Source of the DNA: Hyaloraphidium curvatum
Lineage: Eukaryota > Monoblepharomycota > Hyaloraphidiomycetes > Hyaloraphidiales > Hyaloraphidiaceae
NCBI GenBank assembly: GCA_025558095.1
Contig: JAIVFI010000036.1
Location: 62,001 to 126,000 of the forward strand
Reading direction: 5' to 3'
Length of the DNA: 64,000 bases
Under the pieces are notes generated by a model, which did no database searches, had not been told where the DNA came from, and saw nothing but the letters and a program-made list of their open reading frames with translations. A program made the translations under genes and the position numbers. Shown one piece after another: positions 4,156 to 45,565 of this stretch (positions are counted from its first letter, which is position 1; every line of letters starts with the position of its first letter).

Positions 4156-4590
4156 GCCATTGGGCCACAGGGGATAGCAGCAACGGAGTCAGGGGGGCCC
4201 TCCTCTCCATCGAGCAATCGAGATACTGCCCTGCAGACGTAGCGTCGCCGTCATCCTGAGCACCCCTACCCGAGGTGGGAGGCTGCGTCGCCATCAGACG
4301 CCGCATCGAGGCCGCTCCTGGGTCCTAAATCCAGGCGGTGGCAGCGCTCCGACGATCTGACGCTCCACGAAAACTAAGGATCGCCGGCGTGGTTTGCGTG
4401 ACTTCTGCTCACTCTTGTCTCGCTTCACCAAATGGTTGGGAAGTGCGCCCTGCAAGCTTCAAAGCAGACCTTGCGATACAGGATCAAAGCCAACGATCCG
4501 GGCATCACCGCAGCGGGCGGCAACCGCGGGGGCGCACTCCGCGGAACCCCCGCCACGGCGCCTCGCCCCGCCCTTCTCCCGCCCGCGGAG

Positions 4591-5709
4591 CTAGGAGTCC
4601 GAAGTCGGCGGCGGCGGCTCCGCCGTGGGCTGCCACTCCCCGATCGCCGGGGGCTCCGGCGGTTCCGGCAGCCCGGCGAGGGCCCGCCACGCGGCGTGCT
4701 CCGGGCCGCTGCCCTCGATGTCGACGATCGATACCTTTCCCACGCGTTCCCTGACGGAGGCAATGACGCGGACGAAGGCGGTGTCGGGGATGCAGGGGCG
4801 GAGGTCGCGGAGCTCCAGCAGTTCGGCGCGCGGGATGCCGCGGAGCAGGGCTGCGGTGGGCAGGCGGCGGAGGGCCAACCTCCTGAACCGCGACCGGAGG
4901 AGCGCATCCCACAGATGGTCCGGCACCGTTTCCGCGGCGCCGCAGAAATGCAGCTCCAGGTCCTCGGGCGGAAAGTCCGGATGGTCGGCCAGCGCCTCCG
5001 GGACGGCCCCCGCCCGCGCGCGGAGGCGGCAGAGCTTCTCCACGAGACGCGGGTGGTTCCCGACAAGCTGGCCGAGGAAGAACCCCAGCGTGCCCTCGTG
5101 GGGCGACAGCAAGAGCTCCAGCGTCTCGAGCCGCGGGCACCCCCGGTCGATCCTGTCCAGCACCTCGGGGGAGGGATCAAAGGCCTGCGAATCGATCATC
5201 TCGATGGAAACGCGCCGCAGCGAGGGCGGCAGCTCCATCCCGTTGAGAAACCCCGTGCCGGGCCCGTCGTCGCAGAGCACCTCGAGGTCCTCCAGGCCCT
5301 CCAGCGGGGCGAGACACCCGCGGTCCGGGAGCAGCCTGCCGTACGCCAGCCGGATCCGCAGCTTCCTCGTCGCCGTCGCAAGGCGGAGGCACGTCCCGGC
5401 GTGGGTCCGCCCGAGCATGCCGCCGAGGTCGAGCTCCCTGACCATCCGCGCGAGGCGCGGGTTGGCCAGCGCGCGCTCCAGGGCGGGGAAGTGAGGCCGG
5501 GCGGGGCGCAGCGTGCGCAGCAGGACGGGCATCGCGGCGGCGTGCAGGGCGCGGCACGCGGCGGCGCAGCGGGCGAGGTCGCGCGGGCGCAGGTGGCGGA
5601 GGACGGCGGGGAGCAGCTCGGCGGGGAGCGTCGCGAGCGTGGGCGGCGGAGGCTCCGCGGCGGGCATAACCGGGTCCGCCGGTGAGACGGCGCCCTCCTC
5701 GATTTGCAT
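4591..5709 (-). CDS. F-box/LRR-like protein
   Basis: Single-exon protein of 372 aa. After a short Pro-rich N-terminus, residues ~24-62 (LATLPAELLPAVLRHLRPRD onward, ending in CRALHAAAM) fit an F-box, the Skp1-binding motif of SCF ubiquitin ligases. The rest is Leu-rich with LRR-like helices and strands (LEDLEVL, PRLETLELLL) but no clean repeat register. The C-terminus is Pro-rich. It is likely a substrate receptor; the target is unknown. It is divergent from the RNase H-like gene, with 107 bp between the start codons, so the two probably share a promoter. Confidence 0.7.
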   Translation of the reverse strand: MQIEEGAVSPADPVMPAAEPPPPTLATLPAELLPAVLRHLRPRDLARCAAACRALHAAAMPVLLRTLRPARPHFPALERALANPRLARMVRELDLGGMLGRTHAGTCLRLATATRKLRIRLAYGRLLPDRGCLAPLEGLEDLEVLCDDGPGTGFLNGMELPPSLRRVSIEMIDSQAFDPSPEVLDRIDRGCPRLETLELLLSPHEGTLGFFLGQLVGNHPRLVEKLCRLRARAGAVPEALADHPDFPPEDLELHFCGAAETVPDHLWDALLRSRFRRLALRRLPTAALLRGIPRAELLELRDLRPCIPDTAFVRVIASVRERVGKVSIVDIEGSGPEHAAWRALAGLPEPPEPPAIGEWQPTAEPPPPTSDS

Positions 5710-8107: not shown

Positions 8108-9218
8108 TCAAAGCGCCACCCTGCACATGGGACAGTCCGCCCTCGCCTCCAGATGCCTCCTGAGGCACCCTTCGTGGAACGCGTGCCCGCACGGCATCCC
8201 CGCCGCATCCGAGCCAACAGCAAACTCATCCCTGCATATCGCGCACGGGTCACCCGCGGGGGCGGGCACCCCGACGATGCGGGCGAGCTGCGCGGGGTGG
8301 CGCCGCGGGATGGGGTCGGGTCGGAGTCGAATTGGGAATTGAGCGCGGAGATGCCGGCCCCCATGTCGGAGACGGCGCCGCCTGGAGAAGGGCCGCAGCT
8401 TTAGCTCACGAGGCGGAAGAAGACAAGGACGGGGGCGGGCCGGGACCCACCGAATTGAAACGCCATGGTGCGGAGTGCGTTGGCGAAGGTAACAGCGAGC
8501 AGGTTGGCCGAGGGCAGCAGGATGGCCGCGTCGCGGACGTGCGATCCCGGGCGGTCCGAGTGCGCGGCGACGTAGAGCGTCAGCGACGACACAAAATTGG
8601 TCAGGATACGGAAGCATGCCCCGAATATCTTGACCACGCGCGGGGTGAAAAACCTGCCCGTCCCGAGCTCCGGCCCGGCGATGTACCCTTTGCCGACGCT
8701 GTATCCGCACGCGAACTGCGCGTATCTCGCAAGGATTCCAAGCACCGCCAGGATGCCGAGCCATGGGCCGCAGCCGGATCCAAAGAGGTTGCGGGCGACC
8801 GAGAGGGAGTACCAGTTGGCGCCGACGAGGCGAGGCACGCGTAGGACCAAAACAGGTTGGCCGAGTCAATGAGGTGCCCGGGAGCGTCCGCGAGGTTGGA
8901 CACGTGCGCGTGCGGAGGCGGGGCGTCGCCGTCCTCGGACGGGGCATCGGCATCGTCGTCCTGGCCGCCCTCGGCGCCAGCGGACGCGTTCGGTCGCCGG
9001 CGGACCACCGCGATCGGCTCATCAGAAGTATCCTGGCGGATTTCGGTGGACCGCTGTGCCTGCGGCGTGGCGGCCGGCGTCGGCACTCCGTTCGCCAGCC
9101 GCGTCCACGCGGGCGGGCTGTCGACCCTTTCCACCCGGGACACCGTCACGGGATTCGGCGACGGCCTGAATAAAATGGTGAGGCCCTCGGAGCCGCGGGA
9201 GGAAGGCTGGGCGGACAT
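8108..9218 (-). CDS. Membrane-anchored RING-H2 E3 ubiquitin ligase (HRD1/AMFR-like layout)
   Basis: The C-terminus carries a complete RING-H2: CAIC, then CGHAFHEGC, then CPMC, ending in RVAL-stop. Upstream are several hydrophobic helices (around FWSYACLA, PWLGILAVLGILARYAQF, and LLAVTFANALRTMAF) and an acidic N-terminal ~120 residues starting MSAQPSSRG. Membrane spans followed by a cytosolic RING-H2 is the plan of ER-associated degradation ligases. An intron (GTGGGT or a nearby donor ~8450, acceptor at 8382) separates membrane and RING parts. Two frame breaks remain: near 8822 (SYACLASSA to ANWYSLSV) and near 8298 (RGATP to AQLARIVG). Each is cured by one added C/G, so they are either sequence errors or early decay. 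Confidence 0.65.
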
Positions 9219-33186: not shown

Positions 33187-34230
33187 CTACTGTTCCGAAG
33201 CTGCGAAACCAGCCACGTACTCGTCGATCTCGTTCAGGTACCGATCCCTCTCCTCCTCCGGTATCCAAGCGATCTCGAACGAGTTCCTCGCCAGCTCCAC
33301 GATCTGCCCGGGCGTCATCCCCGCCTTCTCCGCCAGCGCCTCGAAGTTCCTCGCGGCATAGGCCCCGAGCATGTAGGCCGGATCGTCCGAGTTGACAGTC
33401 ACTTTGACGCCGGCTTCCATGAGCCGCAGCATCTCGGGCGCCTTCATCGTCGGGGTGACGAACGAGTTGCTGACGGGGCAGCAGGTGAGCCCGATCCCCT
33501 TGTCCGCGAGGTACCGGACCAGGGCCGGGTCCTCGACGACGTTGGTGCCGTGGTCGAGCCGGTCCACGCCGATTTCGAGCAGCGCCTGGCGGATGTGCTC
33601 GATGCTGTTGGGCTGGTCGATGTCGGCGTGCGCGGTGAGCTTCAAACCCAGCTCCCGCGCGCGGGTGTACACGGCGGCAAACTTGGCGGGCGGATTCCCG
33701 CGCTCGTCCGAGTCCAGTCCGATTCCGAGCAGCAGGTCGCGGAAGGGGAGGGCGTATTCCAGGGTCGACATGGCGCTCTCGGCAGATTCCTCCCTCAGGA
33801 AGCACATGATCAGCGCGGCCGAGAGTCCGTACGAGGCAGCGTCGGTGCAGGCGCGGTGGTATCCCCGAATCACTTTCTCGATGGGTACTCCGCGACGGGT
33901 GTGGGCTTGCGGATCGAAGAAGGCTTCGACGCGGCGCAGGCCTTCGCGTTCGGCCGCGCGGCGGAAGAAGGACGACGCGAGGTCGTAAAAGTCCTGCTCC
34001 TCGACCAGCAGGTCGATGCCGCCGTAGTAGACGGCCAGGAAGCTCGCCAGGTCGTGGAAGCGGTACGTCGCCTTGATGTCCTCGACGGTTTTTTGCACGA
34101 GGTCGATGCCGTTCCGCGCGGCGAGCTGCAGCTTGAGCTCCGGTTCGAGGCAGCCTTCCAGGTGCACGTGGAGCTCGGCTTTGGGAAGTCCGGCAATGAA
34201 GCTCGGCGAAACCGAGGACGGAAGAGGCAT
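33187..34230 (-). CDS. Adenine deaminase (AAH1-like, ADA superfamily), altered active-site motif
   Basis: Intronless, 347 aa, the usual size for fungal AAH1, which converts adenine to hypoxanthine. Conserved features: PKAELHVHLEG (metal His21, His23), EEQDFYDLASSFFRRA, FFDPQAHTRRGV, IMCFLREESAESA, HGTN (His227), CPVSN, and SDDPAYM (Asp282/283). The third metal His is in LTAHADIDQ at 201. In related enzymes this reads HAGEE, where the Glu protonates the purine; here it is Asp-Ile-Asp, so catalysis may be changed. The Met at 34230 was chosen because it starts just before the conserved PKAELH; the frame is open further upstream. It is divergent from the next gene. Confidence 0.82.
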   Translation of the reverse strand: MPLPSSVSPSFIAGLPKAELHVHLEGCLEPELKLQLAARNGIDLVQKTVEDIKATYRFHDLASFLAVYYGGIDLLVEEQDFYDLASSFFRRAAEREGLRRVEAFFDPQAHTRRGVPIEKVIRGYHRACTDAASYGLSAALIMCFLREESAESAMSTLEYALPFRDLLLGIGLDSDERGNPPAKFAAVYTRARELGLKLTAHADIDQPNSIEHIRQALLEIGVDRLDHGTNVVEDPALVRYLADKGIGLTCCPVSNSFVTPTMKAPEMLRLMEAGVKVTVNSDDPAYMLGAYAARNFEALAEKAGMTPGQIVELARNSFEIAWIPEEERDRYLNEIDEYVAGFAASEQ

Positions 34231-34435
34231 GCTCCGGCCTTCTTCGGCGTGCCGATTCGAGAGAGAGGCGTGTCTCCCAGATGAGTCTCCCCCCAATGAC
34301 ACGGTCGCGAATCTCGGTCTCGCGCGAAATGTCAAGTCGGTGACTATAGTGTACGCGCGTTCTACGGTTCGGACGAGCCAGAGACGCGACCTGCGGGCGT
34401 GCGATTGGATGCAACTGGACCGGAGACGCTGAGAG

Positions 34436-36184
34436 GTGTCAAAGTCAGCGATCATCGTCGGCCGCGATGGGCAGCCCGTGGACCTCGATGGCCTTTACTC
34501 TCGTTTTGTGCGGCGCTTCCGCGAACGGATCGCGGTGGCCTGGGCTCTTGGCGTCGCGGCCCACCTCCAACACTGGCTTCAGCTGTGCACCGAAGCCGCC
34601 GCTGTCAACGCTCCGGCCCCCGCGCCGGTCGCTTTTGGTTTGAATGTAGATGAGGAGCTGATTCTTGGGGCGTAGGGGGATTTCTACGGTGGGATTGCTA
34701 GCTCCTCATTACATACAGTCAGCGATTGTCAAACGCCGATCTGATCGCGGCTCTCAAGTCGCGGAGCCGCCGATGTGCGGCCCTGGGCGAGATGGCGCGC
34801 GCCAGCAAGTACTCTCGTGCGGTTCTCGCCGTCGAGGGCCACGACAGCCAGATCACGCGCATCGAGCACCTGCGCGACGCCGACATACCACCGAACGACA
34901 TCTACATCGAGCTGGGCGACGTGCTGGGGGGCGCCGCGCCGGTCAACGTGGTGCAGCCGTCCACGGGGGAGAAGGAAACCGCCCGCAAGGCCGCCGCCCG
35001 CCGCAATGTGCTCAAAGTGCTCCATTCTGCGTCGACCGCGGGATACCTGCGGAAGAAGGCCGCCATCGAGCGTGCTAGGCCGCCGAACCAGCATGTCAAA
35101 CCCCGGCACCTGGAGGACGCGGTGGAGAATCTGGTTTCGGGGGGATGCCTCAGGAAGGAGAAAAAGGGGCAGAGCGGCTGCCTCTACTGACCGATTCGTC
35201 TCCTTCCGTGACTTCGCCCGGCCTTTCCGCCCGCGCTCTATCATTCTCCTCCGATGAGGGCTCGGAGGACAAAGAAGAGGAAAGCGAAGACGAGAACAGG
35301 ACGAGGTCATTCCCCTTGCGGACGATGACGACGACGTGGTCATCTTCAGCGAGGGCCCCACATCGCCCGTCAAGCCCGCGCGTCACGAAGGTGACGGTAG
35401 CGACCCCCGCTCGCCCATCCGAGCTTCGGAGCCCCCTCAACCCGCCACGGGCCCGGCAGACGGAGCACCCGGCCCGGCGGATCCCGTGCAACCCCCGACG
35501 ACCAGCGACGAGGAACTCGCGCGGATCCTGCAGGAGCAGGAATACGTGGCGCACGACTGGCCCGTTCCGGCGTTGAACCCGCTCGTTCGCCCTTACATCA
35601 ACCCGCTTTCGTTGTTCAATCCGTTCCTACCACCCCCAACGCCCGGCGCTCGGCCCCAAGCGGCATTGGCATTCGCTCCCAGACACGTGGGGACGGGGTC
35701 GCCCCGCAAGCCCGGGCCGGCAAGAGGGAAGGGCAAGGAGCGGCGGCCGTCGGGCGCCGCGGCTTCTCCGCCGCCTTCCGCGGACCCTGCTCCGGCTGAT
35801 CCTCCTGACCCGCTCGAGGATGCCCAAGAACCGGATCAACCCGAACAGCAGCAGGTTCCAGATCAGCAGCAGGCACCCGAACCGCAGCCGGCGCCCGCAC
35901 AGCAGCAGGCACCGCTCAAGCCCGATCCCGCCCCCATACCGGCACCCGCAGCACCCTCCTCCATCGCGGAACCCTCGATCGTCGTCAAGTCCGACCCCGC
36001 GATCAAGCCCGACCCCGCGATCAAGCCCGACCCCGCGATCAAGGCGGAACCTGCACCGTTCCCGGCTGCTCCCGTCGTGCTGATCCTCGACGGCCCGGTG
36101 CCGGATGCCGAGCCGCTCCTCGTGAAGCAGGATGTCAAGGTGGAGGTGAAGCGGGAGAGGGAGCTGTTCGTGATCGACGATTGA
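34436..36184 (+). CDS. Unrecognised nuclear-type protein rich in SUMO-acceptor motifs
   Basis: Start not fixed: the reading frame before 34436 is stopped at 34430 and has no ATG, so an upstream exon is needed (an ATG at 34329 with a weak donor is one option). Exon to 34671, 47-bp intron, exon from 34719. The middle (NADLIAALKSRSRRCAALGE, IEHLRDADIPPNDIYIELGD) matches nothing I know. Two frame changes near 35168 (GGGG run) and 35300 (AGG) are each cured by one added G, giving KEKKGAERLPLLTDSSP and SEDENRDEVIPLADDDDD. The last ~200 residues are Pro/Gln-rich and contain seven psi-K-x-D/E sites and SIM-like acidic-hydrophobic patches (VIPLADDDDDVVIF, LFVIDD). SUMO-linked regulation is inferred. 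Confidence 0.5.
35993..36046 (+). repeat. Three tandem 18-bp units encoding DPAIKP
   Basis: GACCCCGCGATCAAGCCC is repeated at 35993, 36011 and 36029 (the third ends GGCG). Each copy encodes Asp-Pro-Ala-Ile-Lys with a following Pro or Ala, so each adds one psi-K-x-D/E site. Confidence 0.95.
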
Positions 36185-36209: not shown

Positions 36210-36876
36210 TCAAGTGCCGCTGGCAGCCGTGCTGTACTCTGGGGCCAGGTAGAGGCCGACGGCCGGCCCGTGCGCCGAGAGGAAGGTCACAAGCCACGAA
36301 GCCCGCGCGGCCCCATCCGCAGATGGTTCCACGGAGGATCGCATGGCGTCCACGAGGTCAGCAGTCCCGCAGGGGTGCACGAAATAGTAAGGGGTGCCGT
36401 AGATTGGATGTTCCTTTGGCAGGGGTGAGAAGAGGAAAGAAGGCTCGAGTAGGGCCGGCGGACCCACAGTCTGCGAGACAATGACATCGCCGCCTGGAAC
36501 TGATTCTTTCCCTTCCGTCTTTGGTCGCAAGAGCAGGTCGTCCGCGTGCCCGCCCCCGTCTGGACGAGACGGTCAAACGGTGATCCTGAACGCGCCAAAC
36601 GCGACCCGCACCGGCACTGCACACGTTGAGCAGCAGCATGGGCACCGCGAACGAGCTGCTGAACACGACGTGGTACGTCCAGGTCCGGACGTCCCCCGAT
36701 TCCGCGGTCCGCACGACCTCCTTCGCCAAGTGGCCGTCGGGCCCGCCGCGGGGCGACGGACGCGTCGGGATCCACTTCCACCCGTCCGCGAGGGAATCGG
36801 ACACGTCGATAAGCAGCTTCGCGTCGCGCTTGAACTGTTCCAAGGGCGTCATATGAGGGCGCGCGCCGATCAACAT
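36210..36876 (-). CDS. ATG10: ATG10-like autophagy E2 conjugating enzyme
   Basis: Two exons (36876-36579 and 36499-36210, 79-bp intron) give 195 aa. ATG10 is the E2-like enzyme that links ATG12 to ATG5 in autophagosome formation. Diagnostic segments: FKRDAKLLIDVSDSLADGWK, TWTYHVVFSSSFAVPMLLLN (the YHxVYSxSyxVP core), and after the splice HPIYGTPYYFVHPCGTADL, where the Cys of HPCGT is the catalytic thiol. WLVTFLSAHGPAVGL is the usual C-terminal helix. The start could also be the in-frame Met at 36852 (MTPLEQF), which fits the family better. It ends 25 bp from the convergent SUMO-motif gene. Confidence 0.82.
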
Positions 36877-36897
36877 GTCAACAAAGCTGCCTAGTCG

Positions 36898-36917
36898 CAC
36901 ACATCGCCTCTGCTACT
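36898..36917 (+). repeat. Left candidate terminal inverted motif
   Basis: CACACAT, seven unrelated bases, GCTACT. It is the mirror of 45520-45539 and lies 26 bp upstream of the transposase ATG. Confidence 0.4.
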
Positions 36918-36942
36918 AGCTGTTTCCGCCGGCAGCGCCCCA

Positions 36943-39417
36943 ATGCCAGTGGCCTTGGCATCTCCATCTGCAAACTCTGCGCCTCGGGCTTCTTCACAAC
37001 TACCTGTGCCCCGGACGCCAATGTTGGTGGACGGCCCCGCCATCGCAACTCGGCTCAAGCAGACTGGGAAGCTGAGCTCGGCGGAGATTTCTGCGTCGTT
37101 GGGAGTACATCGCACGACCTATTTTCGTTGGATCAAGTGGGCATCGCTGCCCCCGGCATCGAGAGAGGGAGTTCGCAAGGTCCGGAGCCGCCGCAAGGTC
37201 ACGGACCAGATGGTCCAGGACATCGTACACGAGGCAAAAAGCCAGGTCAGGGTCACCCAGCAGGAGCTAGTTCTTTTTCTGGCAGAAAAGTACGGGATCC
37301 GCGTCTCCCAGCAGCACGTTTCGCGGCTGCTGAAGGCAAATGGCGTCACTAGGAAGAGGCTCACCGTCAAGTCTTCCGAGGCCTTACGGCAACCGGAAAG
37401 GCATCTTCTGTTTCATAGTCGCATCGAGAATGTGCCTATGGAACGCATGGTCGCACTGGACGAAACGGCTTTCGAGCTCAACGACCCGGGCAGCCACGGG
37501 TACTCGGACCGCGGAAGCCGCGCTGTTGTCTACCTCCCGCGGAATAGAGGTCCAAAGGTGACTCTGTGTCTCGCAGTGTCACCAAGTCCTCGTCCGGGAG
37601 CAGTTGCTGGAACGGTGATCTCGTATGTGATCTACCGTGGCAATATGAACACGGAGCGATTCTGCGCTTTCTTGAGGTCTGTTAAGGCAGACGGACAGGG
37701 CCCCAAGAACGCGCTGAACATTGTGATTGACAATGCTGGTTACCATGGATCCCCTTTGAGGGCAAAGAAGACCGCAAATGGTACTGCGATTGTAGAGAAC
37801 ACCTCCGGCAAATCGTTCCTCGCGGTTCAGGCGGTGGCGAAAGCCAACAACCTCAACCTCGTGTACCTGCGACCCCGTACTCCCGAGTTCAATGCGAGTG
37901 AGCACGTGATAGGGCGGTTGAAGCGCCTTGTCCGGCGAGACTGTCCCTCCACTGTGGCCGATCTGATTGACGCTGTCGAGAGGGCGATACGAATTGTTGG
38001 GGAGAGCGATCTCTGTCCCACTTTTCGGCACTGCATCAAGCTCAGCGCGGAAGAGAAGGCGCGCATTCAGCGGGAGATGCTTCGGTCCGACAACCTTGGT
38101 TCCACGAGCGGGTGCATACAACCGGAAACGGCAACTGGCGAGATCACGGGAGACACAAACTCGACCCGCATGGACACCGGACCGGGTCCCGGGGCCGCGC
38201 CCAGGAACGCGGTGGACGACGGCATCGCTGCTCGAGAAGCGGCCCGCCTGCTGCAGGAGGTGGGGAACTCGTCGCCGTCGTCATTGACGCGTGCCGACCT
38301 CCGTTTGACTTCCCAGGCCCGGGAACTCGGAGTGGCCGAGGTCGACGTCCACAAGGCCTACGATGTGAACCAGCTCTATGGCCGACTACGAGGACTCAGT
38401 AATGGAGGTGCTTTCGGATCGGCGTGGAACACGTTTCTGGACGAGCTGCAGAACGCCCGCGCCACCGCCTCCAAGGACGTCATCGGCACCCTCACCTCCC
38501 TCCCTCCCGACCAGTTCCGCGGAATATGCTCCGCAGTCGAGAAAGGCAAAGGCAAGGAGGTCCGCGCGGCCCTCTGCCGGAAGCTGCGGAACTTCGTCGA
38601 GCGACGTCGGCTCCCCGCGCCCGTCGCCGACGAACCATCGCCGGCCACCGCGGGCACCCCTTCCGGCCTCTCGCCGCCTCCGCCGCTCTTTCCAACTGTT
38701 TTAGCGAACCCGATTTTCGCTCCAGCCGTTGTCGGAGCCCCGGGGGCGCAGCTGGACGCTCTGCTGGACTACGCTCTGGAGCCGACCGTGCCCAAGGACC
38801 TGCGTGAGGCTGTCAAGTACGCGTGCTGTGCCGGGCTTTCCGACCTGGACCAGGGTCGTCCGGACGGCAGTTACTCGTCCCTCTCCGCGACGAGGAAGGA
38901 ACGACTTTTTGTCTCGCGCCTGGTGGCGGTCGACCGTGAAGGAGGCTTCCACCGCTGGACGGCAGCGACCGAGATCCGTCTGCGTGGGCGGCTGATGGCG
39001 AGTGATGCGGCTCGTTTGGATGATTTCGTCCATTCCGTATTCCTTGCTCGAGTGCGGCACTTCGTTCGCCAGCCGGAAGCCGGGCTCATACCCGTGGAGG
39101 ACTTCGAGCTCCCAGCCCAGACCCACCTCCGCCGGCCGCAGAACTGGCGCAAGATCCTGGAGGACGCCCTCGGCGCGCTCAAGAACGCGTCCGGGAAAGC
39201 CCTGTGGGATCGGAGGAGTCGTTCGCTCGAGGTTGCGCTCGCCAGCCTGACTCTGGAAGAGCGCATGGCGCTCGTTGTCCGCACGGACTTGCCCAAGGAC
39301 ATTGCCTTTCAGCAGGCTGAACAGCGCCGCATCTTCTTCGAAACCTTCCTCTGGGGCCCCATGAAGGCCAACGAGGCGCTCCTGGGCATACCGGATCGTG
39401 GTCCGGTGCCCGCGCTG
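36943..39417 (+). CDS. Tc1/mariner-like DDE transposase exon with large C-terminal extension
   Basis: ATG 36943 opens a frame that stops at 39459 (838 aa) if unspliced; a GTGAGC donor at 39418 would instead join it to 39477. Residues ~43-66 (KLSSAEISASLGVHRTTYFR) form one helix-turn-helix and ~105-139 a second, as in Tc1/IS630 enzymes. The acidic triad is Asp173 (MVALDETAF), Asp263 (IVIDNAGYH) and Glu320 (RPRTPEFNASEH). The last spacing is longer than the usual ~34 because of an insertion. It would cut and paste the element. From ~residue 400 onward (38140) the protein is of unknown fold and codon use becomes much more G/C-ending, as if two genes of different age had been joined. Confidence 0.85.
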
Positions 39418-39476
39418 GTGAGCAACGTTCTGGCTTCCAGCTCCAGCATTCTGGGCTGACGGTGCACTCCTCGCAG

Positions 39477-40057
39477 CCGCTGACCTTCTACGAGATCTTC
39501 CAGCCCACGAAGGGGCTAAGAGGCGTGAGCGAAAGGGCGGACGCGGACCTCGGCTCGTTCTTCGACAAGGCTTTGGCTGCTGTGCACGGAGAGGAGGGGC
39601 GCTCGGTCCTGTTTGAGTTGATCTTTTCTGGCCACCCGATGCGCGACCATTTGCTGGACTATTGGGGGTTCGATTCGCTCGTGAACCCTGTCAGCGACGC
39701 CGCCCGTCGCGCGAGCGTCGCGTTCCACCTGAAGTTGGACGCGCTCGAAAAGGCCTTTGACGCCAAGCGCGTCGACATCTGTTCCCTCGGATGCCTTTAT
39801 TGTCCCTTCACAGTGGCGGTCGAGGGCCGGGTGCCGGCTCGGAACCCGGAGCGGAAGAGAAAGGACGCGAACGGCGCTACGGCCGGCAAGTCGTCGGATC
39901 AGCGCCAGTACGACGCTGGCGTGCGGCTCGGGCATCACGTCGCGGGGAAGCACTTTACGTGCCAGATCTGCCGCAAAGACGGCAGGCGTGTCACGTTTGC
40001 GTTCGAGGCCAAGTACCGGGAACACGTGGAAACCCAGCATGCAGATGCTCCTCTCCA
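39477..40057 (+). CDS. Zinc-finger exon linking transposase and Fanzor regions
   Basis: An open exon of 581 bp with no ATG near its start (the first is at ~39638) but a good acceptor (CTCGCAG, 39476) and donor (CA|GTAGGT, 40058). It begins PLTFYEIFQPTKGLRGVSER. Near its end CSLGCLYCPFTVAVEG and HFTCQICRKDGRRVTF...YREHVETQH look like Cys2-His2-type fingers, likely DNA-binding. Its phase matches the transposase exon before it and the Fanzor exon after it, so it reads best as an internal exon of one gene. Confidence 0.6.
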
Positions 40058-40111
40058 GTAGGTCTCCGCAAGAGATCCACACGGGGTCATTACTCATCCT
40101 CGCTGTCCCAG

Positions 40112-43100
40112 CCTCGTCATCCCCCGGGCCTTCACATCACGGCGCGGACTGCTGCTCGCCCAGGTCAACTACATTGTGCCGCACGCCTGCCGCACTCAAG
40201 CAACGGAAGCGGAGAGTGCTGCCGCCGGAGCAACGGCGATGGACGTAGACGGGGCGAAGGACGAAGGTTGCGCGGCAAAGGAGCCCAGGTGCCACCTCTG
40301 CCTGTCGACAACCCGGGGACACCGGCGAGGATGCCGGCCGGCTTTGCGGCAAGCTGCGGAGAATGCGTACAAGGCCGTCGGGGATGCGGAGCACGAGCGG
40401 CACGTGACCGAGCGCGCCATGTCGACAACCTGGTTCTTGCCCGAGGAGGCCCTCCACCCCTGGGCGATCGAGCCGCTCAAGAGCGTGGGGCTGCTCATTT
40501 CCCGCGCCGCAACCGGTGCGGCGTCCTTTGCAAAGCTCGTCTGGACCTCGGCGATGCTGGCAGTATACAACGGTCTGCTGGACAACCGCTCCGTTCCCCC
40601 TGCCATCCTGCGCAAGTTCCCACCTTCCGTCGTAGCGAACATGGCGATGCTGGTGGTTTTGAACGAGGGGGCGCTAAACGCCAACGCAGGCACACGCCGG
40701 AGGAAGAAGCCGCGCGGGGACATCGGCACGGATCCGGGCGTGGAGATCACCGCAACTGGCGCGGGACTCGGCACGGTCACGGAAATGGCGGAGGACGATG
40801 ACGAGCCCGCTGCCGAAGATGGGGAAGAAGAAGAGGAGGGCGGAGATTTCGGTGAATACGCCGGGTTCGCGGACTTCCTGGCCGGCGAGGGGGAAGCCGA
40901 CGGACCTGAACACGCGCTGGAAGCTCTGGGCGCCGGCTTCGGTGGCGACGGGATGGCCGACGACGGCGAGGTTTTTGACGGTCCCGGCACCCTCTCCGTG
41001 GAGGAGCATAACGCGGCGGCTGCGGTTCTGCGGGCGGTAGTCACCGACGCCTACCACGAGCTGAGGCCGGACCTGGCTTCCGAGTTTGCCGACTGGCACC
41101 ACTACCTGCTGCGCGGCCCGCTGCTCGGTTACTTCAGGAATCTTGCCGCAGGACGCCTCCGCACCGTCCCCATCCAGCTGCGCAAGGAGCTTTCGGACCT
41201 GATCCGCACCTTCCTGAAGGAGGAGCTGGACAACGCCGTGAAGCGGCAAAAGATTGGCCACATCTTGCGCTGCGTGCTGGCCAAGCTCGGGACGGGTGAT
41301 ACGAACTTTTTCGGCACCAGCTTCGCGGCCTTTGGCTGCAGCCCCGAGTTTGACGCGGAGGCTCGGCTTCGCCTGACCTGGCTACTCCTGCCGCTATCCG
41401 GACGCTCGCTGAATACGATCATGGACCTGCGGGAGCCCCGCGACCGGCCAAAATGGCCAGCGACTGTCCTACAGCGCGTGATGCTTTCGCTGAGGAAGCG
41501 GGACGTGGAGCTGAAGCGGTCGGCGATGGCGACGCGTATCCGCAGCGTCGCCATATCGCCGCAGAAGGCGCGCGGCAAGTCGCAGGACGAGGAGGACGCA
41601 AAGGCGGCGTACCTGCTGGATCTGCGCGACCGGGCCCAAGCCGAACTCCGCCGGATGCCGCCTGAAGCGATCAGGCAACTGCAGGAGGAGGAGCGGCACG
41701 AACTGGTCGAGACGTATGTGGCTGACAAGCTGCAGTTGCGTGGCATCCCCGTCGAGATCCCCTCCGTGCAGGGGGTTGGCATCCACCCCACAAAGAGCCG
41801 CTTTTGGGGGCCGGAGTGGACGGAGGGCCTGGACAAGGAGGCGCTGTTGCAGCGCTACGAGAGGGAGCTGCTCGATGAGAGGCAGAGGGCGCGTCAGCTG
41901 AGCACAGCTGAACTTCGCCTCGCGCAGACGGGCAAATGCGCGGACGCGGACGCGTTTGGCTCCGAGGCTCTCTTTCAGACTATGCGGCTGCGGGAGGAGC
42001 AGATCGCGAGGCTCAAGATGCGGCGATCGTCAAGCGTTGCCTCGACCGGATCTGAACCAAGCCCGACGGCCTTGCCGCAAAGCTCGACACCGACACCTTC
42101 ATCATCGAGTGCGGCGGACAGCGCTCGGCGCGTCGCCGCCAGCTTCACCACCGAGGCCGCAATGGACGTTGACCCTGCGAACGAGGCGGAGGGTGGTGGA
42201 CCCTCTGCGACTCTGTTCCGCGGAAGTGCCGCCGTGGACCTGCTTTGCGCGGACATGGAGTGCTCCGACTCGGAAGACGGCAATGTTGAGGCTGCTGACG
42301 ACTTCCCCACGATCGGCGGCGGGAAGCAGAAGTCGAAAAAGGGCCGACCGATCCGAGTGGACCCCAAGCCGTGGCCGAAGAACGGGGCACCCAAGCGATT
42401 CCATGGCTACGTCACGACGGGGAAGAAGCGGGCGCCGCTGTCGCCCGAGGGCAAGGTGAAGAAGCGATTGGGGAAGTCACGTGTGGCGGCTCGCCGATGG
42501 TCCAGCGCGGCCGGAGGGAGCGGGGAGAAGAGCGTGGGTGACGCGTTCTCTCCCGTGGTGAGGTCGTCATTCTGATACGTTTCATGAACAACAGCAGTCA
42601 AGGACCCAAGGCGGCACCACCGGAGGGACCTGGGCCGCGGGCGGGATCCGGCCGCTCTTGACCAGGATTTCCCTCACCCCCATAGCCCTGTACATAACCG
42701 CGAGCGATCTGCCCGACCTCTTCAAGATGCTCGGTGTTAAGCTCGGCCCCTTGGCACCGGACGTGGCCAAGATCAACCCCGATTACCTGTTTGGACACCT
42801 GTTCAACAATGGCAACAAAATTGTTCAGGACGAGCGTCTTTTCCGCCTCCATCAGGAGGGGAAGCGCTCCCCGGCAGGGCACGCGGACGCCTCACGGCCG
42901 ACCCTTCGCCGGTCGGGCGATGCGCTGCACTGCTCGTGCATTGCTGGCATGGTTCTTCGTGGCCCAACCTTTGCCATTGTCGAGGAGCACATGGCCGTCG
43001 TGCCCAGGGCTTCGAAGCCGAAGGCACCGCAGCAGCAGTGGACGGAATCTGAGCCCAAAGTGACGCCGCCCTTGGATTGTAGGTCCCCGTTCTTTCATCG

Positions 43101-45524
43101 GAGCTTCCGCGCCTAACCTGCTTCCCAACAGTCTTCCTCAGCGCGCCATCGCCCGAGCCGTGTTGGGAGTGTACGGAGCCAGAACAGCACGCCCACTGGC
43201 ACGACTTTTCGGCCCAAGATTCGTTCGGGATGCCCGCGGTCCTCGTGCCCACCCTTCCGCACGGTGCTCCGGACCCCCCGCCGGGCATGGCCGTCGTTGA
43301 TGGTATGTCATCCTTGCCGCTGCACTCAGCGCTGCTGATGTGTTCATCTTCAAGCTCACGGCTGGCTCCATGCTGGCGGGACCGTCTTCTTCCCCCCGCC
43401 CGCCATTACCGACGATGCCGAGCACTTGCTGGTAGATCCCGACTCGACTCCTTTCACGTGGATGGACGTGGATCAGGATTGGATCGGGCTCCCGCCTCCC
43501 GCCTCCATCCCCCCCGAACCCCCACCCGCAACATCACCGAACTCCTCCACATCGGTACCTTCCGAGTCTCCATCCTCCTTCACTCCCACCCTCGCTCCTC
43601 CGCCTCCTCTTCCCATCCCGACGGCCTCGCCTGTGGGTGCCGCAGGATCTTCTCCGCTTCCGCCCTCGTCTCCACCTGCCCCTGCTCAGCCTCCAACCTC
43701 CGCTCCTCTCCCACCGCACCCTCGCTCTACGTGCTCATCGATACCTCGTCCGCCTGTTGACTGGAAGACCTCTATACCGTGCTACAACTTTAGCCGGAAG
43801 GCGGACGCGGAGAAGCTAATGCCGCACTTCCTAACAATGGCAACGGAAGAGGAGATGTGGGATGCCGCCCAACGGGGCCTTCCCGTTTCTGGTGGCGTTG
43901 TCTTTTGCGATCCAAATCGCTGGTTCTATATGCAGGGCGGTCGACGACTTGCACCCGCGTTTGTGGCCCGCTGCCTGGACCCCGGCCCGGGGAGACGGTT
44001 CGACTTCGCCAACACCCACCTACCCGAGCTTTCGGAGAAGATCGTCGTCACCAACCCGGACGGCACCACATCGACATACATTCTTGTGCGCGCCAACGTG
44101 CCCAAGGGGTGCATCTCTGCGGGCCGCATCAAGGACATCCGGCTCGAACACTCCTGCGACGAGACGGCCCGCGTTGCGCGGGCGACGCAGGCGGCGCCGC
44201 GCAACATCCGCTGCCGACACCACCCGGACGGCGCCGCCAAGCTCTCGGCTCACCGCCCGACCAACCGCGGGCATGCGAACCGCGACGAGAAGCTGCGGAA
44301 GGCCGAACGGAACTGGACGCTTTTCCCCAACCCCGACGGCGGGTCCGATGCCGACGGGGACAGGTTCTGGGGTGGTATCGCCGGCTTTGGGCGCGCCGGC
44401 GTCCGCCAGCTTCCGGAGCTCATTCTCGGCGTGCCTGGGGACCTCGATCGCCGGATGTGTGGTTACCAGCACGCTTCTAGGAAACTGGCGTCGCTGCGCA
44501 AGTCGCACACCCTCCCCTCCGGCCTGACAATCGAGGCTTGGGAATCGGCACTGCCTTCGCAGCGGACGACGAGCTGCGAGCAGTTTCGCAAGTACGCCCA
44601 TGCCATCACGAAGGAGCTCTGCTCCGTCGTCAAGTTCTACTGCAATGATGAGATATGGTTTGTTCACGGCCAGCCTGCGTGATTGGGATGCAGCCTTCCT
44701 GACGCCTTCTTTTGCAGCCGCGACCGCGTCCGTACCATCCGGAGGCGTCGGCAGGTGCTCGACTGGATCGCCCGCGACCTGTGTCGCAACCCGTACTCGG
44801 GCAAGTTCGATTCCCAGACCACCTTCGCCTATGGCGCCGCCCGCTTTGGTCACGCAAGCAAGGGCGGTCCGGCTTCTCGGATTGTGCAGTTCAGGGCCGC
44901 GCTCGCGGCCGTTGGAATCCTCGTTTTGATCAACGAGTACCTGACGAGCCAGATGTGTTCAAAGTGAGTTTTCCCTCGTACTTCGCGCCTGATTTCGCGG
45001 CATTGATCGCCCTCTCGGCAGGTGCCTGACGACCTACGTTGTCCCCATCACCAACCCCGGGTGCCGTGGCGAGATCCGGGGCGCCAAGTACTGCCCGACC
45101 TGTCGCACGTACTGGATGAGGGACGTCAACAGCTGTCGGTCCATCGGGTACCTGTTCTGGTTCGCGATCGCTACCGGTGGCGAGCGCCCCTGGCCGTTCA
45201 AGCCTGACACCAGGAGGCGCAAGCCGTCGAAGCCGGCCGCGAAGTCCGCTGGTACGCTGATTTTGCTCGCTTTGGAGCGTGTGAGCTGATGGCGTTGCAG
45301 GCACCACTCTTCAGACCGGATCCGTTCCCACCGTGCCCAAGCGTCCTGGTGCGGTGGCGCGGGGACGCGGCTCTGCCAAGAAGGTCAGGCTGGACGGCCC
45401 CGGCCGTGGGTCTTCTTATCTTTCTTCTCTACAAATTGGCGGGTGGTGCGAGCCCTCGCCTGTGCCCGATTGTGGGCTTGATCGAGGTGGAGTCCGAGAG
45501 GACCGCCTTTTTGGTGGCAAGTAG
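40112..45524 (+). CDS. Fanzor (eukaryotic TnpB-like, RNA-guided) nuclease
   Basis: Exons 40112-42557, 42598-43078, 43132-43302, 43355-44657, 44718-44963, 45022-45251 and 45301-45524 all join in phase. From the ATG at 40239 the protein would be 1,657 aa, long for a Fanzor; alternatively it continues from the transposase. Conserved parts: helical N-terminus (VGLLISRAATGAASFAKLVW), ISLTPIALYITASDLPDLFK, RuvC-I-like HLLVDPDSTPFTWMD, then TTFAYGAARFGHASKGG, INEYLTSQMCSKC, GAKYCPTC and RuvC-III RDVNSC (Asp codon 45122). The CxxC...CxxC zinc ribbon followed by RDVN is the TnpB/Fanzor signature. RuvC-I has Asp-Pro-Asp where Asp-Pro-Gly is common, followed by a ~75-residue Pro/Ser insert. The tail is basic. 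The 40-bp intron at 42558 is the weakest junction. Confidence 0.85.
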
Positions 45525-45539
45525 CATTCCATATGTGTG
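45520..45539 (-). repeat. Right candidate terminal inverted motif
   Basis: On the minus strand CACACAT-N7-GCTACT, matching 36898-36917. It overlaps the last codons of the Fanzor and ends 27 bp before the next gene's ATG. Confidence 0.4.
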
Positions 45540-45565
45540 TAGCCACCCATTTGGAGACTGCCGCC

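Follow-up and report, generated by a model that had tools for sequence, protein, structure and literature searches.

Fanzors are eukaryotic RNA-guided enzymes that cut DNA. Fanzor1 proteins have been described in the Tc1/mariner elements PGv-1, PUl-1 and HMa-1, where the transposase and Fanzor are separate proteins and insertion duplicates a TA dinucleotide (PMC3627910), and the association of Fanzor1 with mariner transposases is also stated in PMC10711439. The words fused and fusion do not occur in the main text of PMC3627910, and we found no transposase–Fanzor fusion in the literature searched, which took in few subscription papers. Here we analysed a window of 64,000 nucleotides (nt) from the genome of Hyaloraphidium curvatum (contig JAIVFI010000036.1, positions 62,001 to 126,000; coordinates below are those of the window unless a locus is named), which holds a complete transposable element of 8,654 base pairs (bp) belonging to what we call family A. 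As in PGv-1, PUl-1 and HMa-1, a mariner-type transposase and a Fanzor1-type RuvC/zinc-ribbon protein lie in one element with terminal inverted repeats. Unlike in those elements, the two are predicted to be encoded by one spliced gene that also carries zinc fingers and a long linker, the 2-bp target duplication is not TA, and the catalytic spacing is DD56E. Four families of this kind (A, B, C and D), all ordered transposase, twin zinc finger, linker, Fanzor, were found in the 31.9 Mb of genome (55 contigs) that we searched for copies and relatives.

The wider IS630-Tc1-mariner group includes the classes DD34-41 and Sailor DD78-111E (PMC8533490). The H. curvatum element shares with this group a DDE_3 core, a helix-turn-helix (HTH) region and terminal inverted repeats; it differs in a spacing of 56 residues, which lies outside both of the ranges given in that source, in a duplication that is neither TA nor TATA, and in a C-terminal extension of the transposase of ~400 residues. 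The initial annotation of this DNA had called the transposase Tc1/mariner-like. This holds for the DDE_3 core and fails for the spacing of 34–41 and for the TA duplication, so that the element is a Fanzor1-bearing mariner-like element lacking two defining Tc1/mariner features.

Gene model and protein domains

In family A, eight GT-AG introns of 40–60 nt join the open frames into one frame of 2,692 amino acids from the ATG at 37021. The open frames, the GT-AG junctions (three named introns and five more) and the matching phases are as the initial annotation had claimed, and its total of 2,719 codons is reached by counting from the ATG at 36943 (2,692 plus 26 codons plus the stop). We take 37021 as the likelier start, because the ATG at 36943 is absent from one of the five family A copies (C4) and because the methionine at 37021 aligns with a methionine of family B. 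The parts of the model are:

36892..45545, plus strand, whole element of family A (8,654 bp; ends from comparison with four other copies)
37021..39417, plus strand, exon 1: HTH, DDE transposase and C-terminal extension (Pfam DDE_3; start methionine common to B)
37021..39459, plus strand, transposase-only frame with intron 1 retained, 812 amino acids and TGA (similarity to B; 13-codon tail in all four families)
39418..39476, plus strand, intron 1, phase 0 (in-frame TGA at 39457-39459 inside the branch site CTGAC)
39477..40057, plus strand, exon 2: two zinc-finger-like units (aligned across the four families)
40058..40111, plus strand, intron 2, phase 2 (phase 2 in all four families, from coordinates)
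40112..42557, plus strand, exon 3: linker region (B 35–36% identical; no Pfam domain)
42598..43078, plus strand, exon 4: N-terminal part of the Fanzor region (in B continuous with exon 3)
43132..43302, plus strand, exon 5 (spliced model, A/B comparison)
43355..44657, plus strand, exon 6: Fanzor, RuvC-I Asp (CDPNRW; alignment)
44718..44963, plus strand, exon 7: RuvC-II Glu (INEY) and first zinc-ribbon Cys (alignment)
45022..45251, plus strand, exon 8: remaining zinc ribbon and RuvC-III Asp (RDVNS; alignment, Pfam)
45301..45524, plus strand, exon 9: basic C-terminal tail and stop, the least certain exon (spliced model)

The exon order that had been proposed recurs in three further families within the same genome. 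Family B has ten copies, and its model, with five introns, gives ~2,697 codons collinear with A; identity to A is 47–48% in the transposase, 37–38% in the zinc-finger exon, 35–36% in the linker and 44–45% in the main Fanzor exon. B resembles the A transposase as far as residue 852 in a stop-to-stop frame of 854 codons, and five introns are common to A and B in both place and phase (phases 0, 2, 1, 2 and 2). The last ~70 residues of the two fused proteins align poorly and a sixth, high-scoring B intron lies near the C-terminus, so the C-terminal end of B is provisional. Families C and D are single decayed relatives, both on contig C2. The transposase core is interrupted by a frame break in both, and an additional, unexplained frame change precedes intron 1 of D; neither relative is, therefore, a working gene. 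A search of the genome with the Fanzor exon returned 17 matches, which are the five A copies, the ten B copies, C and D. The zinc-finger exon adjoins the transposase in all 15 A and B copies and had no match elsewhere in the genome at an expectation value (E) ≤ 0.01, a search for which C and D are too diverged.

Pfam DDE_3 is found in the DDE part (E 3.5e-12; 46.8 bits, cut-off 28.6), and exon 1 also has a match to HTH_33 just under its cut-off; the spacing between the second D and the E is 56 residues in both A and B. The PDB, searched with the transposase profile, gave no match at E ≤ 0.1. Two C-x2-C ... H-x4-H units align in A, B, C and D, and the name zinc finger rests on this motif because no Pfam zinc-finger model matched. 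The linkers of A and B contained no Pfam domain.

In the Fanzor part, the RuvC residues D, E and D and the four zinc-ribbon cysteines could be aligned, with the motifs conserved between A and B, and the catalytic residues look intact in the predicted protein. PF07282 (TNB zinc ribbon) was found in all four families at E ≤ 0.1 (best 9.4e-08), in A with 25.5 bits, just below the cut-off of 26.3. The RuvC D-E-D residues and TNB zinc ribbon that mark Fanzor1 are thus both present. The PDB matches of the Fanzor part were LaTranC (E 0.0003), the TnpB-like L79 (0.0005) and, more weakly, Guillardia theta Fanzor1 (0.11).

A motif like that of OTU cysteine proteases (GDCLF ... HYD) lies in the linker of C (L054:845-1567, minus strand), and its Cys is missing in D. 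Since the Pfam OTU match there (E 0.017, 16.0 bits) is below its cut-off of 23.3, a self-processing polyprotein is only an idea.

Intron 1 and the number of genes and products

Intron 1, which would join the transposase to the zinc fingers, is 59, 57, 59 and 60 nt long in A, B, C and D, respectively. By coordinates, it has phase 0 at donor and acceptor alike in every family, and its branch site starts 38 nt from the donor in each. A splice score was trained on the other introns of A and B (n=11; scores 17.3–20.3), and on this scale intron 1 reached 19.3 (A), 19.6 (B), 19.2 (C) and 21.4 (D); the fractions of the other GT-AG pairs in elements A and B (n=1,429) that reach these scores are 0.28%, 0.21%, 0.28% and 0.07%. 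Given the intron lengths, the transposase and zinc-finger frames are offset in A and C but coincide in B and D; splicing puts the two parts into one frame in all four families. Similarity between the families begins right behind the acceptor, with PLTFYEIFQ in A, LLSFPGLFQ in B, AQTIEEAFA in C and ARTLQECAT in D, and the B copies match A from residue 2 of the zinc-finger exon. The recurrence of intron 1 in four families with the same phase and good signals, the phase 2 of intron 2 in all four, and the collinearity of A and B together support one gene, and we consider it likely that transposase and Fanzor are fused by splicing. The recurring intron, the phases, the collinearity and the catalytic motifs are features of the sequence itself.

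The stop codon of the unspliced transposase frame lies within the branch site of intron 1, which reads CTGAC in A, CTGAT in 11 of 13 reads of B loci, TTGAT in C and CTGAT in D. Because the distance from donor to branch site is fixed at 38 nt, the TGA comes in frame after exactly 13 codons in each of the four families; in the four other introns common to A and B this distance differs by 11, 4, 8 and 8 nt. The similarity between A and B in the inner part of intron 1 is above that of shuffles (p 0.0115), whereas the inner parts of introns 2, 5, 6 and 7 gave p 0.54, 0.36, 0.52 and 0.45. With intron 1 retained, the predicted C-terminal end of the transposase is VSNVLASSSSILG. The conserved TGA at 39459, the constant 13-codon tail and the raised A/B similarity suggest that the transposase alone is probably also made, and there is moderate evidence that this retained form, with its defined tail, is used. 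The initial annotation had proposed one polypeptide, or products of one transcript. The single gene is borne out by intron 1 in four families, the phase of intron 2 and the A/B collinearity; the correction is that transposase alone probably accompanies the fusion. One gene, whose two products depend on whether intron 1 is kept or removed, is, on the evidence of the aligned families, the reading that we favour, with some reserve.

Several points weigh against this reading. The transposase frame of D at the donor was read by eye. The training introns were picked by eye from the elements under study, and the score of B uses the branch base seen in 11 of 13 reads of B loci and not that of the copy used. 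In C, the TGATG at the branch site is an ATG overlapping the stop, in frame with the zinc fingers and six codons before the acceptor, and reinitiation without splicing is possible there. The inner parts of intron 1 in C and D are not significantly similar (p 0.21), and in-frame stops within introns are common for other reasons; the case for retention is weaker than that for splicing. Two AlphaFold models for family C, one of its Fanzor and one of its OTU-like stretch, had mean predicted local distance difference test scores of 40.4 and 38.8, respectively, too poor for a fold search. Searches outside this genome also gave no relatives: there was no match among 7,994 scored candidates in each of the protein searches, for the transposase and for the Fanzor, none of 31 pattern matches in viral contigs was confirmed, and phage records searched with one Fanzor exon gave no match.

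If the transposase ended at 39459 and a separate zinc-finger/Fanzor gene had its own promoter or were reached by reinitiation, the conservation of the TGA would be expected, as would the ATG that B has nine codons inside exon 2 and 42 nt past the stop, and the TGATG of C; separate proteins are also what the mariner elements with Fanzor1 described earlier have (PMC3627910). However, neither A nor D offers an ATG close to where the conserved stretch begins. The zinc-finger exon of A lacks one near the acceptor, as the initial annotation had stated, and the ATG in the TGATG at the branch site of D is out of frame. In B, similarity begins at the acceptor, ahead of its ATG, and the phase match in four of four families and the splice scores would be left over. 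Two genes are thus unlikely. We also doubt that the fusion is the only product, with intron 1 always removed and its in-frame stop just marking unspliced RNA for decay. The signals of intron 1 are as strong as those of other introns and intron 2 of A likewise opens with an in-frame stop, but neither the tail of 13 codons kept in four families nor an A/B similarity raised inside intron 1 only would follow from constant removal.

Readthrough of the stop codon could make the fusion where the frames are in register, in B (57 nt) and D (60 nt). Since A and C are out of register (59 nt), the frames differ and readthrough cannot serve the four families; we rejected it as the joining mechanism and regard it as barely credible. 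Compatible with any of these gene structures is a Fanzor that is a passive passenger for expression and movement. This would account for L016 and L017, related transposases with the long C-terminal extension that have none of the 17 Fanzor-exon matches nearby and are followed by short repeats, and for the breaks in the Fanzor frame of A copy C4, a frameshift (the whole fused frame is kept in the other four of the five A copies), and of B copy C35, an internal TAG within the Fanzor exon. Yet none of the 15 A and B copies lacks the main Fanzor exon, and A and B have kept the RuvC and zinc-ribbon motifs in common, which makes a mere passenger improbable.

If one gene does give two products, the pre-mRNA would begin close to the left terminus of the element, perhaps at a promoter captured from the host. 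When intron 1 (39418-39476) is kept, translation would end at the TGA in the branch site and release the transposase alone, which would carry out cut-and-paste. When it is spliced, the transposase would continue in frame into the twin zinc fingers, the linker and Fanzor, a protein of ~2,700 residues that would bring the zinc fingers and an RNA-guided nuclease into the same transposition complex. We infer that both isoforms are made, that they divide the labour in this way and that either enzyme may be active. For the role of Fanzor the simplest guess, by analogy, is a break that would let the element copy itself by homologous recombination, as described for TnpB (PMC10432273).

Copies, ends and insertion sites

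Family A consists of five near-identical copies, the window copy being 99.75–99.98% identical to each of the others, which differ from it in 2, 13, 10 and 11 places. These few differences indicate that family A is young. Each end, searched in the genome, gave five matches, all in the five complete copies, and thus no truncated or non-autonomous A copy. The left and right ends of A match in ~16 of 26 bases (counted by eye), and by eye the inverted repeats of A and B share a two-part build, CACACA-like on the outside and GCTACT on the inside. The features at the ends are:

36892..36917, plus strand, left terminal inverted repeat, 26 bp, two-part (CACACA ... GCTACT)
45520..45545, plus strand, right terminal inverted repeat, 26 bp (comparison of copies and of A and B)
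36890..36891, plus strand, left copy of the 2-bp target duplication (CC; flank comparison)
45546..45547, plus strand, right copy of the 2-bp target duplication (CC; flank comparison)
36863..36872, plus strand, host target motif GCGCCGATCA, starting 29 nt upstream of the element (GCGYCGATC in A left flanks)
45476..45496, plus strand, 21-nt block identical in A and B, their longest exact match (8505-8525 of the B element)

Around 36924, a 9-base GCTAGAAAA segment is present in copies C5 and C16 and missing from W and C25, and in C4 a small deletion takes out the ATG at 36943. Upstream of the window element lies an adenosine deaminase gene (33190-34494, minus strand; Pfam E 5.6e-69).

The duplications in A read CC, CT, GT, AC and CG, matching in three of five copies with the ends as set and in five of five when one additional base is permitted at the right ends of C5 and C16 (GT and AC). 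In B, a matching and varied dinucleotide flanks eight of the nine testable copies, C35 having been left out because its left end was not found; the chance of a 2-bp match is 0.074 per copy.

GCGYCGATC occurs in all five A left flanks, starting 29, 29, 29, 26 and 14 nt upstream of the element (p 0.0008 for a fixed 10-base block). In the left flanks of B, a block resembling AAGGGNTT lies 32 nt upstream (p 0.0002, the lowest value attainable with 5,000 controls); of nine copies, C5 and C6b fit it poorly. The same test on right flanks gave a weaker signal (p 0.042 in A and 0.023 in B). An open reading frame (ORF) of at least 60 amino acids, or open to the end, starts within 50 bp in 9 of 15 right flanks. 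The corresponding count for left flanks is 4 of 14, and random positions in A flanks have such an ORF in 21% of cases. GCGTCGATCA is found 244 times in the genome, and 3 of 20 sampled motif sites, from the head of the list, lie 37–66 bp upstream of a gene-like ATG (L061, L062 and L068; by eye). From the flanks we infer insertion at host core promoters marked by a family-specific promoter-like motif, and the element may therefore use a captured host promoter. Precision insertion near transcription starts has been described for Mu and P (PMC7337890).

The 21-nt block near the right end could be a guide-RNA scaffold or a transposase site. The predicted RNA fold of its region is not unusual (z -0.27). 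The block holds, on the minus strand, TCGATCA, a part of the target motif of A, once in A and once in B. An internal guide matching the full length of the target motif was rejected, as GCGTCGATC is absent from A and AAGGG(G/C)TT from B on both strands.

Other loci add to this picture of related elements. The B copy on C15 (right flank L029) is inserted 12 bp before the ATG of an L016-type transposase gene, so that the elements are nested. By eye, the transposase cores of C and D are nearly identical and their zinc-finger and Fanzor parts more diverged, a contrast that suggests module exchange or gene conversion. L077 (G000:C5:335300-341300) is a further Fanzor-type locus (PF07282), whose similarity to A, B and C is only weak. 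The opposite strand there carries an ORF resembling a helix-turn-helix transposase (4396-5241), and the parts are thus not fused. Beside this locus is an ORF with a STDSDYL motif, which we take to be flap-nuclease-like.

Comparison with other transposons and meaning

In the P element, intron 3 can be retained, and the fully spliced form is the transposase. The H. curvatum element resembles it in a retained intron whose stop would give a second, shorter product and in insertion near gene starts; it differs in that the spliced form would add a nuclease and in the near-fixed spacing between insertion and motif. CRISPR-associated transposons (CAST) are RNA-guided Tn7-like transposons. They, too, combine a transposase with a Cas12/TnpB-type protein and insert at a fixed distance from a recognised sequence. 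In contrast to CAST, the elements described here contain neither the 9- nor the 8-base target motif, and the Fanzor catalytic residues look intact. It is tempting to see in the spliced product a targeted-integration machine, made of a DDE transposase, a zinc-finger reader of the core-promoter motif and an RNA-guided Fanzor, with the branch-point/stop switch choosing between it and the transposase alone; we put this forward tentatively and think it rather less likely to be right than wrong.

The DD56E spacing and the non-TA duplication widen the IS630-Tc1-mariner group. If the gene structure is as predicted, the overlap of stop codon and branch point would be a compact switch, comparable to that of gag versus gag-pol, and the element would be a natural precedent for engineered nuclease–transposase fusions for targeted insertion. 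A natural covalent link between transposase and Fanzor in four families would, if true, mean that both work in the same complex, and would provide a concrete system in which to test it.

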